DNA from: a virus | DNA: 38,277 nucleotides | Strand: one strand, 5' to 3' | Virus record (IMG/VR): IMGVR_UViG_3300025174_000061 | Coordinates: 1 to 38,277 of that record | Shown here: piece by piece, positions 6,106-35,421 of the stretch | Numbering within the stretch: position 1 is the stretch's first letter | Layout of the letters: every line of letters starts with the position of its first letter | Position numbers and translations under genes: made by a program | Notes under the pieces: generated by a model | What the model saw: the letters and a program-made list of their open reading frames with translations, nothing else | Told to the model about the DNA's origin: nothing | Databases searched by the model: none

Positions 6106-7113
6106 CTATCCTCCGGTTGTGATTGTGACCCACGAATAGGTATCAGCAGCGGCTTTTAGGCAAACACTAACTGTGTCTGTGACGCCCGCGCCACCATTCA
6201 CGATCCACAGCGTGTTGCGCTGCGTTGCGTCACACGTAGGAGCCGCGGCAGTATTTCCGATCCCAAATCTTGGCATGCCGCTAGGAAGGATCGCAGCAAC
6301 CTTGGTGGTGCTGTTGTTCATTCTGATCAACTCACCCACGGTCAAGGCTCCAGCAGCAGCATTTATGCCCGTGAACGTAATGGCGGCCTTTGCAGCGTCG
6401 ACTGTCGCATAGGTGAGAATGGTGACTCCTCCGGTGTCAGGATCGCGCCCTTGGAATGAACTGGCCTGAACTGCAGCGGATGATAAAACCGTACCATTTG
6501 AAGCTGTCCAATTGTATTGACAGTTGGAATCCAGACAGAGCTTTGACCCTGTCGCCATGGACAAGGCAACCGCCCCGCTAACCGCCGAAGTGGTCAGGTC
6601 CCGCGCCGTTACCCCGGACGTGGTCGAGATGTTGCCGGAGGTCCCGAGCGACGGAAGCGCGCCGCTGGGAGTCACGGAGCCGGTATCTGTCCAGGTCACC
6701 GCAGGCGCCGTGACCGTGGCCATGAGAAGTTCCGCGCCAGTCGATCGGCCGTACACCTTGTAGCTCGTGGCGCCTGTGACCGCACCCCAAACGACGACGA
6801 TGCCATTCGATGCGGCTCCGCCGCTCACCGTGAGGCTCGTCTCGGTCGACGCCAACGTTTCACCCGCCGCATCGAGCGCACTCACTCGGTAGTAGTAGGT
6901 CCCGTTATTGAGCGTTCCGGTCGTCGCCGTGAAGGTCGCGTTGACCGGGGTTGCCAGCACCGTCGAGACGAGGCCTTTCGTCTGGACGGTTCCGGTCGAG
7001 ACCACGCCCGGAGTCGTGACGGGAGCGGTGAACGTGCCCGAGCCGCCGGGCCGGCTGAGCACCTGCCCGAAGGCGAGTGCGGGGAGGAGGGCGAGAAGGA
7101 GGATGGCTTTCAT
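6106..7113 (-). CDS. Secreted fibronectin-III-like surface/tail protein
   Basis: The protein has 335 residues. Residues 1-17 (MKAILLLALLPALAFGQ) look like a Sec signal peptide. Residues about 55-150 form a fibronectin type III-like domain with the Y.YRVSALDAAGE...TS and TSYKVYGR patterns. The rest is Gly/Ser/Thr-rich, with a C-terminal NTLWIVNGGAGVTDTVSVCL end that I associate with repeat or head-domain proteins of phages and Deltaproteobacteria. It may be an accessory adhesin, but a signal peptide on a virion protein is unexpected, so export before lysis is possible. Confidence 0.6.
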   Translation of the reverse strand: MKAILLLALLPALAFGQVLSRPGGSGTFTAPVTTPGVVSTGTVQTKGLVSTVLATPVNATFTATTGTLNNGTYYYRVSALDAAGETLASTETSLTVSGGAASNGIVVVWGAVTGATSYKVYGRSTGAELLMATVTAPAVTWTDTGSVTPSGALPSLGTSGNISTTSGVTARDLTTSAVSGAVALSMATGSKLCLDSNCQYNWTASNGTVLSSAAVQASSFQGRDPDTGGVTILTYATVDAAKAAITFTGINAAAGALTVGELIRMNNSTTKVAAILPSGMPRFGIGNTAAAPTCDATQRNTLWIVNGGAGVTDTVSVCLKAAADTYSWVTITTGG

Positions 7114-24798: not shown

Positions 24799-24824
24799 TG
24801 AATCACTACAGGTGTGATGATTCA
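24799..24824. promoter_or_regulatory. Operator-like dyad
   Basis: TGAATCA (24799-24805) and TGATTCA (24818-24824) form a perfect 7-bp dyad with 12 bases between them, overlapping a possible TACAAT -10. A nested GGTG...CACC dyad lies inside the right half. The site is a candidate regulator-binding site upstream of the micro-gene at 24857. Confidence 0.4.
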
Positions 24825-24856
24825 CCGTAATCACAGACCCACACGGGAGTCGTAGC

Positions 24857-24953: not shown

Positions 24954-25184
24954 ATGGCTCGCATCAGGACAAAATGGCGCGCTCGGTGCTCAAAATGCGG
25001 CGGGGCGATCCTACAGGACGCGATATGCGAATTCCAGGGCCGAGGGAAACTGTATCACCTAAAGTGTACTCGGATACCGATCGACACGTGTTCGCGTGCA
25101 TGGAGGGAGTATTTGGGACCGAAAATCACTCCTCCTGTCGGACCAGCCGGACTGACTGCGCGGCTCAGGAGTGCCTGGGCATGA
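24954..25184 (+). CDS. Small zinc-finger-like protein
   Basis: The protein has 76 residues from ATG 24954. CSKCGGAILQDAICEF followed by GKLYHLKC gives Cys-x2-Cys ... Cys ... His-x2-Cys, a LIM/treble-clef-like zinc site common in small phage proteins. A C-terminal tail has SRAWREYLGPKITPP. The Shine-Dalgarno is poor, so it may be coupled to the peptide frame just upstream, which ends ten bases before. The function is unknown. Confidence 0.6.
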   Translation: MARIRTKWRARCSKCGGAILQDAICEFQGRGKLYHLKCTRIPIDTCSRAWREYLGPKITPPVGPAGLTARLRSAWA

Positions 25185-25185
25185 C

Positions 25186-25413
25186 ATGCGCACCCCACCC
25201 TCAGACCGCCTGTCATGGCTCCCCGCTCGCGCTCGGCCCGGTTCGATCTGGGTCGGCCCGCTCGGCGAACTGGCGCGCGTGGAGCTAGACGGGTCAGTCA
25301 CTCTGATCCGCGGTGGTCCCTGCGGCCGGCCGCTCGAGGAGTTGCGCCGAGTCGCCGTAGCGCCCGCTTTCTCCGCGCGAGCTCGACGCCTTCGCGCCAC
25401 GCTCGCGATCTGA
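25186..25413 (+). CDS. Small hypothetical protein
   Basis: The frame encodes 75 residues (MRTPPSDRLSWLPARARPGS..., then WVGPLGELARVELDGSVTLI). It begins one base after the previous stop and looks like a small beta-hairpin protein. Its last ~115 bases overlap convergently with a minus-strand reading frame ending at 25294-25298. One of the two C-termini is probably not real, or the genes truly overlap. Confidence 0.45.
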   Translation: MRTPPSDRLSWLPARARPGSIWVGPLGELARVELDGSVTLIRGGPCGRPLEELRRVAVAPAFSARARRLRATLAI

Positions 25414-26060: not shown

Positions 26061-26270
26061 CTACGCCCAGGGAGTCAGCTCGTCTCGGACGTAGTCGCGA
26101 GCCGACTTGGCCGACGTGAGGAACGGGCGGGCGCAGGCGCTTTTCTCGACTCGACCCGACACAGTCCACACCCGAGCGGTGGTCTGGTATCGGCGGCCGA
26201 ATGCGGTGCGGATCACGTCGGTGGTGGTTTCGGTCTGGGTCAGCGTGCAGCCGCGGTAGGTGGTCGTCAT
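26061..26270 (-). CDS. Hypothetical protein, first gene of leftward sigma-54-type operon
   Basis: The protein has 69 residues from ATG 26270, chosen because GGAG lies six bases upstream and because the predicted transcription start (about 26308) leaves almost no leader for the alternative ATG 26306. The sequence MTTTYRGCTLTQTETTTDVI is followed by a basic AFGRRYQTTARVWTV part and SAKSARDYVRDEL. It is Thr/Arg-rich with two cysteines. The role is unknown. Confidence 0.6.
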   Translation of the reverse strand: MTTTYRGCTLTQTETTTDVIRTAFGRRYQTTARVWTVSGRVEKSACARPFLTSAKSARDYVRDELTPWA

Positions 26271-26318
26271 GTCGGTCTCCGGGGTCAGGTTAGTGTGGCG
26301 TTTCATGGAAATAGGTAC

Positions 26319-26335
26319 TGCACACGGAATGCCAA
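26319..26335 (-). promoter_or_regulatory. Sigma-54-type promoter, leftward
   Basis: Read on the minus strand, TTGGCATTCCGTGTGCA has the GG (26333-26332) and GC (26321-26320) pairs separated by ten bases, as in -24/-12 promoters. The -24 block TGGCA matches; the -12 block is GTGCA instead of TTGCA. The predicted start near 26308 leaves a leader of about 38 bases before ATG 26270. It is a near copy, inverted, of the rightward promoter at 26544-26559. Confidence 0.6.
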
Positions 26336-26440
26336 CGCGCTACCCGCGTAATCATTAAATTTTTCGTTTTCGGCCCTGCGTTACCAACTGCGCACTGCGT
26401 ATTCTATTATGCACCCGCAACCCCTTGATTCTCCTCGGAG

Positions 26441-26499
26441 TGCGTCAAGTGTGACACGGTTTCGGTGCGTAATCCGCTTCGCGTGTCTGTTTTGACACG
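26441..26499. promoter_or_regulatory. Two enhancer-like dyads between divergent promoters
   Basis: CGTGTC (26482-26487), six bases, then GACACG (26494-26499) is a perfect dyad. A weaker copy, GCGTC-N6-GACACG, lies at 26442-26458, 41 bases away (about four helical turns). Both are followed by G. They lie about 80 and 120 bases upstream of the predicted rightward start and about 140 and 180 from the leftward start. Those are the distances at which activators of sigma-54 RNA polymerase usually bind. The identity of the activator is unknown. Confidence 0.5.
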
Positions 26500-26543
26500 G
26501 CAAAATGTCTAGGAAATACGCATACTGCGCTTTGTGTTCTGGT

Positions 26544-26559
26544 TGGCACTCGGGTTGCA
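26544..26559 (+). promoter_or_regulatory. Sigma-54-type promoter, rightward
   Basis: TGGCACTCGGGTTGCA matches the -24/-12 consensus TGGCAC-N5-TTGCA at every fixed position, with GG (26545-26546) and GC (26557-26558) ten bases apart. The expected start near 26570 gives a 38-base leader before ATG 26608. An 11-bp block around the -12 element (26556-26566) is an exact inverted copy of 26312-26322 at the leftward promoter. The remaining 26337-26440 holds an AT-rich tract (26350-26375) that might bind a bending protein. Confidence 0.7.
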
Positions 26560-26607
26560 GTACCTAGAAATGTGACGAACGCAACCAACCCCCACGGAGA
26601 CGAGACC

Positions 26608-26931
26608 ATGACCACGACCAGCAGCGCCCCCTCCAGCTACATCGTCCAGACCGCCGCCGCCCCAATGCCGAATAGCTGCTGGGGCGTCTACCGCCGCGTC
26701 GCCGTGCTCGAGGTCGAGCCTGGCGTCGATCATGTGGCCATGATCTCGGATCGCGCTCGAGGCGTCCGCCGCGTCGTCCGGACCTGGGAGGCCCGCAACG
26801 TCGGCACCACCCCGCGGTGCGCCTACGAGCGCGCTCTCGCCGAGGCAGAGTCGCTGGCGGAGCACCTCACCGCCCGATCCATCCGCGCGCATCACGTGTC
26901 TGCCCTCGGCTATCGCCTCACGGGTGACTAG
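26608..26931 (+). CDS. Hypothetical protein, first gene of rightward sigma-54-type operon
   Basis: The protein has 107 residues from ATG 26608 (CGGAGAC upstream). After a Thr/Ser-rich start it has a compact-looking region with NSCWGVYRRVAVLEVEPGVD, then MISDRARGVRRVVRTWEARN and a helical C-terminus. An in-frame GTG at 26572 lies at the predicted transcription start and is rejected. No family is recognised. Confidence 0.65.
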   Translation: MTTTSSAPSSYIVQTAAAPMPNSCWGVYRRVAVLEVEPGVDHVAMISDRARGVRRVVRTWEARNVGTTPRCAYERALAEAESLAEHLTARSIRAHHVSALGYRLTGD

Positions 26932-26955: not shown

Positions 26956-27044
26956 CGCCTACGGGACGGGCCGAGCGATCGACCCTCCCCGCGGGCTCAG
27001 GGTAGCCCACCCGGGCATTTCGCTCGGACGCACAAGGAGTGCAT

Positions 27045-28130
27045 ATGCAGCAGACCAAGATCAAGATCCACGTGTCGCAGAAATCGGCCATCGCGGCTGG
27101 ACGGACCAGCTACGGCGACCAGGTAGTCACACTGAGTGACGCGGACGTGGCGGCACTCACGCCCGAGGAGCGGGAGGAGATCCTGCACCTCATGACGGGA
27201 TCGCACCGCGACAACGAGCAGACTGTCCGGCTGAGCGAGATCGTCACCGACAACGACGGCCTAGCCGGAGTACGCGAGGCGCTCCAGTCCCTCCGCGCGA
27301 AGCGCCTCGAAGAGGAGGCGGAGAAGGCCCGCAAGCACCGAGAGCTGATCTCGGCGATCCTCGCTGCGCCGGACGACGAGCTGATCGACGGCAACGGCGA
27401 TGTGCGCGAGCTCTACTCCTCGACCTACGCGTCGATACCATGGTCCGATCCTGCGCTCGCGATCCGCCGCGCGGCGATCGAGGGGACGATCTCCGCGAGG
27501 AAGGCTGAACTCCGCGCCCAGGCGGAGCGACTGCTCACTGAGATGCGGGCGGACGCGAGCGCCTATCCCGACATCGAGCTCAAGGACTGCCACGTCGGAG
27601 GGCATCTCCGCGCCTACCTGACCCAAGAGGAGCGGAGCGAGGTCGACGCGAGAGGGAGGTCGGTAGACGCAGCGCGCAAAGCGACCGAGATCGCAGCGGA
27701 GGAGGCGCAGCTCCAGCGGTACCGTGACTACGCGCTCACCGGAGCCGCGGGCGAAGCGGCGCAACTGGCGGCGGCTCAGGGCTACGACGTGCGCACGGCG
27801 GTGCTCGACGCCATCGAGGCGATCCTGCCCGAGACGGACAGGACGGAGACGGCCCACGATAGCCCCGACTACGAGTGGGAGGAGCGGTCCAGCCCGTCGC
27901 TGTCGGCGCTCCAGCTCCACGCGCAGCTCGTGACGGCCGTCGCGGCGGCCCAGATCCCTGAGTGGATCACGGTCGAGGTCTCGCGCATACAGCGGATCAC
28001 CGAGCCCACTCCGAGTGACGAGTACGATGACAACGGCGAGCCGGCGAAGGCGGCGAGACACACCGGCGTGGTGCTGACGATCACGGCGCCGAAGGCCATA
28101 ACCCGTTATCGATTACATTACTCGGAGTAA
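27045..28130 (+). CDS. Large hypothetical protein
   Basis: The protein has 361 residues from ATG 27045, five bases after AAGGAG. The N-terminal ~65 residues look like a small domain (IKIHVSQKSAIAAGRTSYGD, TLSDADVAALTPEEREEIL). The middle (about 85-250) is a long charged helical/coiled-coil region, and the C-terminal ~90 residues are acidic with beta strands (VEVSRIQRIT, TGVVLTITAPKAI). There are no enzyme motifs. It is the main product of the sigma-54-driven operon, so it is a priority unknown. Confidence 0.7.
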   Translation: MQQTKIKIHVSQKSAIAAGRTSYGDQVVTLSDADVAALTPEEREEILHLMTGSHRDNEQTVRLSEIVTDNDGLAGVREALQSLRAKRLEEEAEKARKHRELISAILAAPDDELIDGNGDVRELYSSTYASIPWSDPALAIRRAAIEGTISARKAELRAQAERLLTEMRADASAYPDIELKDCHVGGHLRAYLTQEERSEVDARGRSVDAARKATEIAAEEAQLQRYRDYALTGAAGEAAQLAAAQGYDVRTAVLDAIEAILPETDRTETAHDSPDYEWEERSSPSLSALQLHAQLVTAVAAAQIPEWITVEVSRIQRITEPTPSDEYDDNGEPAKAARHTGVVLTITAPKAITRYRLHYSE

Positions 28131-28221: not shown

Positions 28222-28539
28222 ATGAGTGACATAGAGTGGAACGAACAATGGAGAGACGGCGCGGAACACCAGCGCACCGAGGACGGGATCTGCGCATACC
28301 CGGGGTGCGATCACCCGCTCGACGCGGGCGGGCTGTGTCGTGGCCACCGCGGTCAACGCGATCGAGGCGTCGAACTGCGCCCGCTCCGAGAGGTCGGCGT
28401 CGGCTACGTCTCGATCTCGCTCAGGCTGAGACCTGAGACGATCGAGATGCTGCGCGCGATGGTGACTCCAGGTCGCACGCTCTCGATCACGGCCCGGTCA
28501 CTCCTGGAGGCCGCGACCGGAACGCTTCCACCCAGGTAG
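28222..28539 (+). CDS. Small zinc-knuckle protein with an RHH-like C-terminus
   Basis: The protein has 105 residues from ATG 28222 (GAGAGGAGAC upstream). Residues about 24-42 (CAYPGCDHPLDAGGLCRGH) form the C-x4-C...C-x2-H pattern seen in small phage zinc proteins and next to HNH domains; no HNH catalytic part is present. The C-terminus (YVSISLRLRPETIEMLRAMV) resembles a ribbon-helix-helix strand and helix. DNA binding is likely; the target is unknown. Confidence 0.65.
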   Translation: MSDIEWNEQWRDGAEHQRTEDGICAYPGCDHPLDAGGLCRGHRGQRDRGVELRPLREVGVGYVSISLRLRPETIEMLRAMVTPGRTLSITARSLLEAATGTLPPR

Positions 28540-32720: not shown

Positions 32721-33302
32721 TCACGCGGTCTCCCGGGAGATGGCATCCCTAATGGGCCAATCGAACCCGTAGTCGTCTCTCCGGAGCTTCACCTTGCGAC
32801 CATCGGCGTGATGGAACACCACGCCCTCAATGGTCTGGCCCACAAGGAATGCTCGCAGCCCGTCAAAACTCCTGGGGCATTCGGGAATCACATCCGCACC
32901 ATGCAGACGCAGTTGGTGTTTCGCCACGTGCTCGTGGTTTGCCCCGATTTTGGGGCCAATAGCCTCATATGTGCCGTCAAGCAAGTCCTCGGCCCAGTCC
33001 AGGCGAGCCGCTCGAATCCAGACGTCTTCGGGACGATCCGCACGAATCCAGTGCGGCCAATGTCCCGTGACGGGATCTGGATCGCCACAGGGAATAGCAC
33101 CACCGGGAGGTATTCGGCCGTTCCGACAGTCGAGCCGAGCGTAGAGCTCGCCGCCTATAATCGCGCACGCGGTGCCGTCCCATTTTCGGGTGGCGATGCC
33201 TTCCCCCCGCGTGACCCACTCACAGCCCGGCGTAACCAGGGGTAATAGCCTGGGGGGCCGCTGACAGAAGTCGCGCTCAAATAGACAAGGGATCTTTTTC
33301 AT
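32721..33302 (-). CDS. RNA ligase-like nucleotidyltransferase
   Basis: The protein has 193 residues from ATG 33302. RKWDGTAC places the K-x-D-G adenylation lysine at residue 40. ELYARLDCRNGRIPPGGAIP and DPVTGHWPHW, and IEGVVFHHADGRKVKLRRDD, follow the order of covalent nucleotidyltransferase motifs (I, III, IV, V). I associate this set with the DUF5565 RNA-ligase-like family. It would seal or cap nucleic-acid ends after adenylation. No polynucleotide kinase partner is present. A role in RNA repair against host tRNA-cutting defences is inference. Confidence 0.7.
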   Translation of the reverse strand: MKKIPCLFERDFCQRPPRLLPLVTPGCEWVTRGEGIATRKWDGTACAIIGGELYARLDCRNGRIPPGGAIPCGDPDPVTGHWPHWIRADRPEDVWIRAARLDWAEDLLDGTYEAIGPKIGANHEHVAKHQLRLHGADVIPECPRSFDGLRAFLVGQTIEGVVFHHADGRKVKLRRDDYGFDWPIRDAISRETA

Positions 33303-33492
33303 GGCTGCCTTTCTCACACGCGCAAGTGGGGCCGAACGGGGCCTCGTTGTCCCCGCTGATTGTCGGCACCAATGGATCGGCGTCTAGATAGTAGGTAATG
33401 CGCCCTCGTACGGCCAACCTGCCGTCCGTAATAGAGCGCCCTGGCCCCGCGGGCGGACGGCAGTCGAAGTGCCACCGCGGCTCGTCAATCAT
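33277..33492 (-). CDS. Small hypothetical protein
   Basis: The protein has 71 residues from ATG 33492, overlapping the HTH gene stop by four bases, and its end overlaps the ligase-like gene by 26. The sequence MIDEPRWHFDCRPPAGPGRS ... RITYYLDADPLVPTI ... FGPTCACEKGSH has Cys/His residues near both ends. No family is recognised. Confidence 0.55.
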   Translation of the reverse strand: MIDEPRWHFDCRPPAGPGRSITDGRLAVRGRITYYLDADPLVPTISGDNEAPFGPTCACEKGSHEKDPLSI

Positions 33493-34186: not shown

Positions 34187-34618
34187 CGGTCGCAGTGCGA
34201 AGGACTCCTGAAGATGACTCTCTCAGAACTCGACGTGGTCAGCATAGAGGAGCCCGGTGTAGAAAGTGCGTGCATCGCGCTCAAAAATCATCTGAGGGCA
34301 GCTTTGCAGCTCTCCAGGCTAACGCTCGACGACGATCGTGCGATGGCGACGATAGTCTCCGCGTTCCGCTCGATTGCCACGATCACGGCAATCAACGTCT
34401 CCGTCCAGAGCGCCATAGAGGGGGCCGCGAAGCACGCCGGGCACTGGACCAAGGGCCGCCCAGACATCCACGATCGACGGCTCAAGGACATCCAGTCGAG
34501 CCTGGAGTCTTTCGCCTGCGCGTTTCTGGGGCTCACGCCGCCTGAGCCGGCAATCCAATGTGATAGGCCGATTCCACACGGTCACATCACCCGCTACGAA
34601 CTCGCGAGGAAGCCATGA
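34175..34618 (+). CDS. Helical hypothetical protein
   Basis: The protein has 147 residues from ATG 34175 within the 28-bp repeat. It is nearly all helix, with ELDVVSIEEPGVESACIALK, LRAALQLSRLTLDDDRAMAT and IKDIQSS-like segments, plus a HIS/ARG-rich end. No motif is recognised. It overlaps the LacI-type gene start by four bases, so the two are likely made together. Confidence 0.6.
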   Translation: MTYSRSQCEGLLKMTLSELDVVSIEEPGVESACIALKNHLRAALQLSRLTLDDDRAMATIVSAFRSIATITAINVSVQSAIEGAAKHAGHWTKGRPDIHDRRLKDIQSSLESFACAFLGLTPPEPAIQCDRPIPHGHITRYELARKP

Positions 34619-35421
34619 TCCCCCGTCTGACCATCGTGGCGCCAGCGTATACCGGGCCGTTCTCCGCGTCTCTTCTCCGCGAACTTCGGACACTGGCCGG
34701 CATGAGTTCACAGTTTTTCGCAGTAGGGGACGACCCGCAGATCCAGTCGCGGCGCCTTCGAGCTCTTGTGGCAAATCAACAGTCGCCGCAAGCAATCGCC
34801 CTGATCTCCATTCGTCCCGACGCCGATACCGTGCGGCTATATAGCGAGCGATCCATCCCCATGGTGCTGATCGATGAGACGGCGCCGGGTGTCGCGAGTG
34901 TTGCCTGCGACAACTTCCTGGGCGGATACGTCGCCGGCCGACATCTGATCTCGAAGGGGCACCGCAGGGTCGCACTCGTCACGGGTCGAGTGACGGGTCC
35001 AGGAAGCTGGAACGCGGCGCAACGGCGTGACGGGCTCCGCAAAGCTCTCTCCGAACTTCACCTAGTTCCCGTCGTGCAGCACGAGACTCCTGACTACTCC
35101 GCGGAGAATGGATTGTCCGCCCTCCGGAATGCGCTTACGGCAGAGTCTACGGCCGTGTTCTGCGCATCGGGAGATGTCGTGGCGGGCGGAATGCTGAAGA
35201 CCTGCCCCGATGTCGGAGTGGACGTGCCCAAGGGCCTTGCTGTAGTCGGATTCGACGATCTCGGCACAGCGGACCTGCTTGGGCTTACGACGATTCGCCA
35301 GCCAATCCATAACCTGTCAGAGGTCGCGTATAGAATGACGTGTATCACGCCTCGTGACACCATGGAGCGCCCTGAGCAGATTCTTCTCCCACCAACCCTG
35401 ATCGAGCGAAGGACCGTATGA
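34615..35421 (+). CDS. LacI/GalR-type ligand-binding protein without DNA-binding domain
   Basis: The protein has 268 residues. It matches the periplasmic-binding-protein-like effector domain of LacI/GalR regulators from residue 1. It carries IPMVLIDETAPGVASVACDN, GGYVAGRHLISKGHRRVALV, a QRRDGLRKAL helix, TAVFCASGDVVAGGMLK, DVPKGLAVVGFDDLG and LTTIRQPIHNLSEVAYRM, in the family order. The usual N-terminal HTH and hinge (about 60 residues) are absent; the upstream gene does not encode them. There is no signal peptide, so it is cytoplasmic. It should bind a small molecule, perhaps a sugar or nucleoside. It may control a partner protein, not DNA directly. Confidence 0.85.
   Translation: MIPRLTIVAPAYTGPFSASLLRELRTLAGMSSQFFAVGDDPQIQSRRLRALVANQQSPQAIALISIRPDADTVRLYSERSIPMVLIDETAPGVASVACDNFLGGYVAGRHLISKGHRRVALVTGRVTGPGSWNAAQRRDGLRKALSELHLVPVVQHETPDYSAENGLSALRNALTAESTAVFCASGDVVAGGMLKTCPDVGVDVPKGLAVVGFDDLGTADLLGLTTIRQPIHNLSEVAYRMTCITPRDTMERPEQILLPPTLIERRTV

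Follow-up and report, generated by a model that had tools for sequence, protein, structure and literature searches.

A phage locus with candidate divergent sigma-54-type promoters, and sigma-70 promoters in the corresponding place in relatives

Known sigma-54 systems and the phage locus

The best-described counterparts of the locus considered here are bacterial. Both in Myxococcus xanthus, at the targets of Nla28 (PMC9765219), and in Salmonella (PMC3844500), sigma-54 promoters show GG-N10-GC with TGGC and TTGC cores, the transcription start is predicted 12 nt past the GC, and repeated activator sites lie upstream at -80 to -200. The M. xanthus promoters include TGGCGTG-N4-GTGCT and GGGCGCG-N4-TTGCA (PMC9765219), which are close to two of the phage sites described below (G1- and G2-). 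In D. vulgaris, two divergent sigma-54 operons for type III secretion share one activator region, the activator gene lying within one of them (PMC4641369). The FlrA/FleQ-type motif yGTCA-N6-TGACr places inverted GTC/GAC half sites upstream of its promoter (PMC4641369).

The window, that is, the whole 38,277-base IMG/VR virus record to which all bare coordinates refer, contains a region (26312-26566) that, judged by sequence comparison, quite probably holds divergent, activator-dependent promoters of the sigma-54 type, with enhancer-like sites in the gap that separates them. Spacing, cores and the predicted start distance are those of the M. xanthus and Salmonella systems, and the repeated upstream sites, as putative activator sites, fall in the same range, while the phage location, the lack of conservation of AC past TGGC and an additional conserved AGTACCTAG set the locus apart. 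As in D. vulgaris, the two promoters would share one activator region, but the phage sequence yielded no activator. The inverted half sites resemble the FlrA/FleQ-type motif, except that this motif has GTC-N8-GAC and the phage GTC-N6-GAC with a GACACGG extension; no match to the GTC-N6-GACACGG sites was found among the motifs of the listed activators. In a search covering part of the literature, we found no paper in which sigma-54 promoters were shown to work in a phage.

A second candidate for phage use of sigma-54 was noticed in an unrelated 58.9-kb phage contig (IMGVR_UViG_3300032320_002219; L210:148-350). Its sigma-54 match, TTTGGCACGACTTGTGCA, is much stronger and stands about 45 bp ahead of a Shine-Dalgarno-led ATG. 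Six tandem 17-bp repeats (GCAAAGACCCGTCCGAT) precede the -24 element, stopping about 12 bp short of it.

The divergent elements and their conservation

Table 1. Features of the candidate promoter region and its flanking genes in the window.
Feature	Position	Strand	Remarks
Rightward -24/-12 type element, TGGCACTCGGGTTGCA	26544-26559	+	conserved block extends to 26566; rank 1 with the 12-position Salmonella matrix
Leftward -24/-12 type element, TGGCATTCCGTGTGCA	26319-26334	-	rank 2 with the 12-position Salmonella matrix; in six-site alignment
Predicted rightward transcription start	26570	+	from sigma-54 geometry, 12 nt past the C of the -12 GC
Predicted leftward transcription start	26308	-	from sigma-54 geometry, +1 set 12 nt past GC
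Enhancer-like site A, GTCAAGTGTGACACGG (GTC-AAGTGT-GACACGG), imperfect dyad	26444-26459	+	centre about -120 from + start, -141 from - start
Enhancer-like site B, CGTGTC-TGTTTT-GACACG(G)	26482-26500	+	centre about -80 from + start, -182 from - start
First leftward gene	26061-26306	-	Shine-Dalgarno-led ATG 26270, in-frame ATG 26306 = +3; no PHROG or Pfam match
First rightward gene	26572-26931	+	Shine-Dalgarno-led ATG 26608, in-frame GTG 26572 = +3; no PHROG match, no relative by scan
Second rightward gene	27039-28130	+	69% identical homolog in G003, where a sigma-70 promoter stands at the head of the cassette
Third rightward gene, candidate regulator	28222-28539	+	N-terminal zinc finger resembling the one in an HNH family; C-terminal strand-helix-helix, RHH-like

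The two elements have the GG-N10-GC geometry in common, and the 11-mer TGCAGTACCTA stands on both sides, at 26556-26566 (+) and 26322-26312 (-). On the leftward side TTGGCATTCCGTGTGCA occupies 26335-26319 (-), and the conserved block continues via AGTACCTA to 26312. The promoter and dyad sequences and coordinates that the earlier note had given, including an exact inverted 11-bp context, were all recovered in our sequence check, and its leaders of about 38 bases agree with the 38 nt that separate each predicted start (+1 being set 12 nt after the GC) from a Shine-Dalgarno-led ATG. As each predicted transcript also has an in-frame start codon at +3, near-leaderless translation is possible in both directions. 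ATGA occurs at this offset in all relatives, with GTGA instead at the rightward site of the window. The gap between the two -24 elements measures 209 bp and has 50% GC, against 62.5% for the phage overall.

Scoring of the window with a -24/-12 matrix, which the earlier note had proposed, spoke for the two sites in one version and less clearly in others. The Salmonella matrix was built from 29 intergenic sites (PMC3844500). Its 12-position version, which leaves out the spacer, placed the two elements above everything else on both strands of the window, with scores of 14.1 and 10.4 against 14-20 for the known promoters of the matrix; the numbers expected by chance at or above these scores are 0.2 and 2.3 per window. 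With the 16-position version the same sites were weak, at 9.6 bits where the training sites reach 15.0-23.3; some three hits this good would be expected per window by chance, and a divergent pair arose in 8 of 400 shuffles. With a matrix made from 12 M. xanthus promoters (PMC9765219) they were ordinary, at 10.8 and 8.4 against 10.3-17.3 for proven promoters. Results as mixed as these mean that the window by itself gives moderate support, and the match within it is suggestive. Two further matrix matches were set aside, one (24975+) since it lies inside a small ORF, as read by eye, and one (6370-) since it falls within ORF 6106-7113.

Relatives were sought in several ways. The portal protein led to G001 (L001, 74%) and G003 (L002, 65%), and a protein scan to G006 (L212). 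A scan of IMG/VR for TGGC-N8-TGCAGTACYTA returned 92 stretches, most of them apparently due to chance, together with one true relative, G002 (L134), which has cassette genes but not structural genes in common with the window; that the pattern could bring in such a relative indicates that the motif is predictive. The pattern matches L206-L209 appeared unrelated. The only two exact GGC-N8-TGCAGTA matches in G002 are its own divergent pair. Scans with the 26608 gene and with the 27039-28130 gene found no further relatives.

The phage contigs G001 and G002 thus have the divergent pair as well, and the six sites (W+, W-, G1+, G1-, G2+ and G2-) form an ungapped alignment that runs from TGGC to (A/G)TGA. 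The GC of the -24 element is found in all six and its GG in five, G1+ having TG; GG-N10-GC, which in the context TGGCAC-N5-TTGC is the mark of a sigma-54 promoter, is accordingly present at both window sites and at three of the four sites in relatives, with moderate matrix scores. TGCA is invariant (6/6), the 8-bp spacer between TGGC and TTGCA is mostly free, and downstream AGTA, CTAG and ATGA are conserved, the distance to ATGA being fixed. The AC that follows TGGC, strong in known sigma-54 sites, is not conserved, and AGTACCTAG, past the -12 element, is conserved across the sites and not needed by sigma-54. The element was found in three phages only, and its six sites are homologous, hence not independent, so that the argument depends on their diverged spacers. 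At each site, the expected offset is exactly where the sigma-54 score is highest within 150 bp. For the sites that were not used in finding relatives (G1+, G1- and G2-), the mean score there is 11.7, against -3.4 for the runner-up among 134 offsets (z 6.1); measured within the genome of each site, the empirical tails are 3e-4, 4e-5 and 7e-6. With these sites in relatives the match counts as more than chance, and the core geometry that the earlier note had read as sigma-54-like is borne out in G001 and G002.

Upstream activator sites of sigma-54 promoters usually lie 70-150 bp away. The dyads between the two promoters, which the earlier note had described as standing at distances usual for sigma-54 activators, fit putative activator sites in position and have two conserved counterparts in G001. 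Sites A and B are 41 bp apart, and CGTGTC-TGTTTT-GACACG (26482-26499) is a perfect palindrome. GTC-N5-TGAC-N-CGG, a pattern devised after the window had been compared with G001 and expected by chance about 0.12-0.15 times per genome, occurs twice in the window (26444 and 26485) and twice in G001 (as GTC-N5-TGACNCGG), all four copies in the homologous intergenic region. It is absent from G002, from G003 and from the examined parts of G006 and Mx8; G002 lacks exact GTC-N6-GAC sites and has a GGGTCA-N7-TGACCC dyad instead. As the earlier note had also said, no activator appears to be encoded here: neither the AAA+ domain of sigma-54 activators (PF00158) nor the Fis-type helix-turn-helix (PF02954) was found in the window, G001, G002 or G003. 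The activator would thus be host-encoded, unless its gene lies in parts missing from the contigs.

Sigma-70 promoters in relatives and competing readings

According to the earlier note, relatives that keep the genes but not GG-N10-GC would speak against the sigma-54 reading. Such relatives were found in part, as neighbouring genes or the leader are retained in G003 and G006, but what these have at the same start is a sigma-70 promoter. In G006 the leftward leader is kept (ATGAAGCGCA.GACAACCAACCCGGA) and is preceded by TTGACA-N17-GATACT, ending 6 nt before an ATG; in G003, where the gene at 27039 is kept, TTGACG-N17-TATAGT likewise ends 6 nt before an ATG. Both are canonical sigma-70 promoters (10/12 match), and sigma-54 scores there are below -25. 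Conversely, no good pair resembling TTGACA-N16-18-TATAAT is found before the leader at any of the six sites, matches being absent or poor; the gap in the window has one weak sigma-70 candidate, TTACCA-N18-TATTAT at 26381-26410. Given the usual distances, transcription from either promoter class would begin no more than about 2 nt from the same ATG. The pattern in G003 and G006 reads as promoter replacement and not as proof that the element is meaningless. Replacement by a sigma-70 promoter at the same start is also the best single argument for regarding TGGC-N8-TTGCA as a core promoter of -24/-12 geometry.

Three other explanations have to be weighed against divergent sigma-54-type promoters. 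It is rather unlikely, yet worth considering, that the TGGC-N8-TTGCAGTACCTAG block serves chiefly as operator for a phage-encoded regulator that controls weak or unusual promoters of the sigma-70 family in both directions. Its best candidate regulator is the protein of the 28222 gene, which ends the rightward operon and whose C-terminal strand-helix-helix comes from a predicted model. Conservation does extend beyond the -12 element into AGTACCTAG, and the three phages that bear the element (by scan, G001 and G002 besides the window) have 28222 homologs of full length, whereas none was found in G003, G006 or Mx8. This co-occurrence, however, concerns five phages that exchange whole cassettes. 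Arc and ParD2 were among the very weak PDB matches of the model in Foldseek, none of them with a significant E-value, and DNA binding by the protein is putative. Moreover, relatives without the element have near-perfect sigma-70 pairs, whereas none is rightly placed at the six sites.

That some other uncharacterised sigma factor of host or phage, ECF-like or not, reads the TTGGC...TTGCAGTACCTAG block seems distinctly improbable to us. In favour of such a factor, conservation covers more than the length of a sigma-54 site, and TGGCAC has not retained its AC; the element, however, peaks on the sigma-54 matrix at exactly the expected offset, and we know of no sigma family besides sigma-54 with GG-N10-GC and a start about 12 nt on. 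Least credible of all is a chance resemblance to sigma-54 sites within duplicated leader sequence: the frequency of 16-position matches and of divergent pairs in shuffles (2%) would permit it, but the unselected sites in two relatives match at a fixed offset despite diverged spacers, and the repeated upstream sites are conserved.

The idea that the leftward promoter serves as late promoter of all structural genes was rejected, as G002 has the pair without those genes and a rightward gene (25171-25413) intervenes in the window. Several observations concern sequences other than the promoter region. A gene like the one at 25171 was matched, with differing identities, near both ends of the 39.3-kb contig IMGVR_UViG_3300033489_000027 (L212, L213), which may reflect two copies or an end artefact. 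The AT-rich gap before the structural genes contains, by eye, a dyad (24800-24830, GAATCAC-TACAGG-TGTGATGATTC) that could be a repressor operator. The gene at 34615-35421 (+), with a homolog in G001, encodes a protein with the sugar-binding domain of LacI regulators, in whose called ORF no DNA-binding domain was recognised, and 32721-33317 (-) encodes an RNA ligase family protein (phrog_14301, RLIG1) that also occurs in G002, at 72% identity, and widely among further phage contigs.

Host, proposed mechanism and meaning

Among isolates, the Myxococcus phages Mx8 and Mx9 have the structural genes closest to those of the window (portal 46%, capsid 53-56%, and a 541-aa protein annotated as 'amidase' in PHROG, 48%); phages that infect Stenotrophomonas, Bradyrhizobium, Ruegeria and Rhizobium come next. 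The host is therefore likely Gram-negative, perhaps myxobacterial. An actinobacterial host, a first guess from GC content, was abandoned, as portal and capsid relatives are Mx8 and other Gram-negative phages. Actinobacteria usually lack rpoN. When genomes were scanned for prophages, the single match was an alphaproteobacterial MAG (31%). Sigma-54 activators are numerous in Myxococcota (PMC12316311), and M. xanthus rpoN could not be deleted, according to work cited in PMC4641369. Mx8 differs from the window in that its early-to-structural genes run on one strand without this divergent cassette, and in that no full-length 28222 homolog was found in it. A GG-N10-GC sequence, TGGCATACCGATGGCA, does occur in it between the divergent p60 and p61, 33 bp before p61 (L221:34767), with a score of 10.8 that may be due to chance.

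Until an activator of the host spends ATP, sigma-54 transcription stays silent, and a phage that uses it thus hands the control of some genes to a sensor of the host. In the mechanism that we propose, the sigma-54 RNA polymerase of the host would sit closed at TGGC-N8-TTGCA on either side, and an enhancer-binding protein, presumably encoded by the host, would open both promoters from the two GTC-N6-GACACGG sites, switching on the leftward and rightward cassettes of small genes. We infer that these genes would in this way be tied to a host state through a sigma-54 activator. More speculatively, a phage regulator, perhaps the zinc-finger and RHH-like 28222 protein, might bind the conserved AGTACCTAG as well and act as repressor.

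The promoter class would be a known one in an unusual place, and the new part would be its exchange among relatives. We see about equal grounds for accepting and for doubting a broader proposal, namely that this group of phages exchanges the promoter class before the same small-gene leader while the start stays fixed, sigma-54 with host-activator enhancers in some members and plain sigma-70 in others, and that the sigma-54 members gate these genes on host signalling without encoding the activator. The relatives, with sigma-54-like or sigma-70 promoters ahead of the same leader, represent a natural experiment, which opens the sigma-54 idea to a reporter test in an ordinary rpoN strain. Together, the apparent sigma-54-like pair of the window and the ordinary promoters that close relatives have at the corresponding starts suggest that phages of this group are able to exchange the host switch in control of the small genes.
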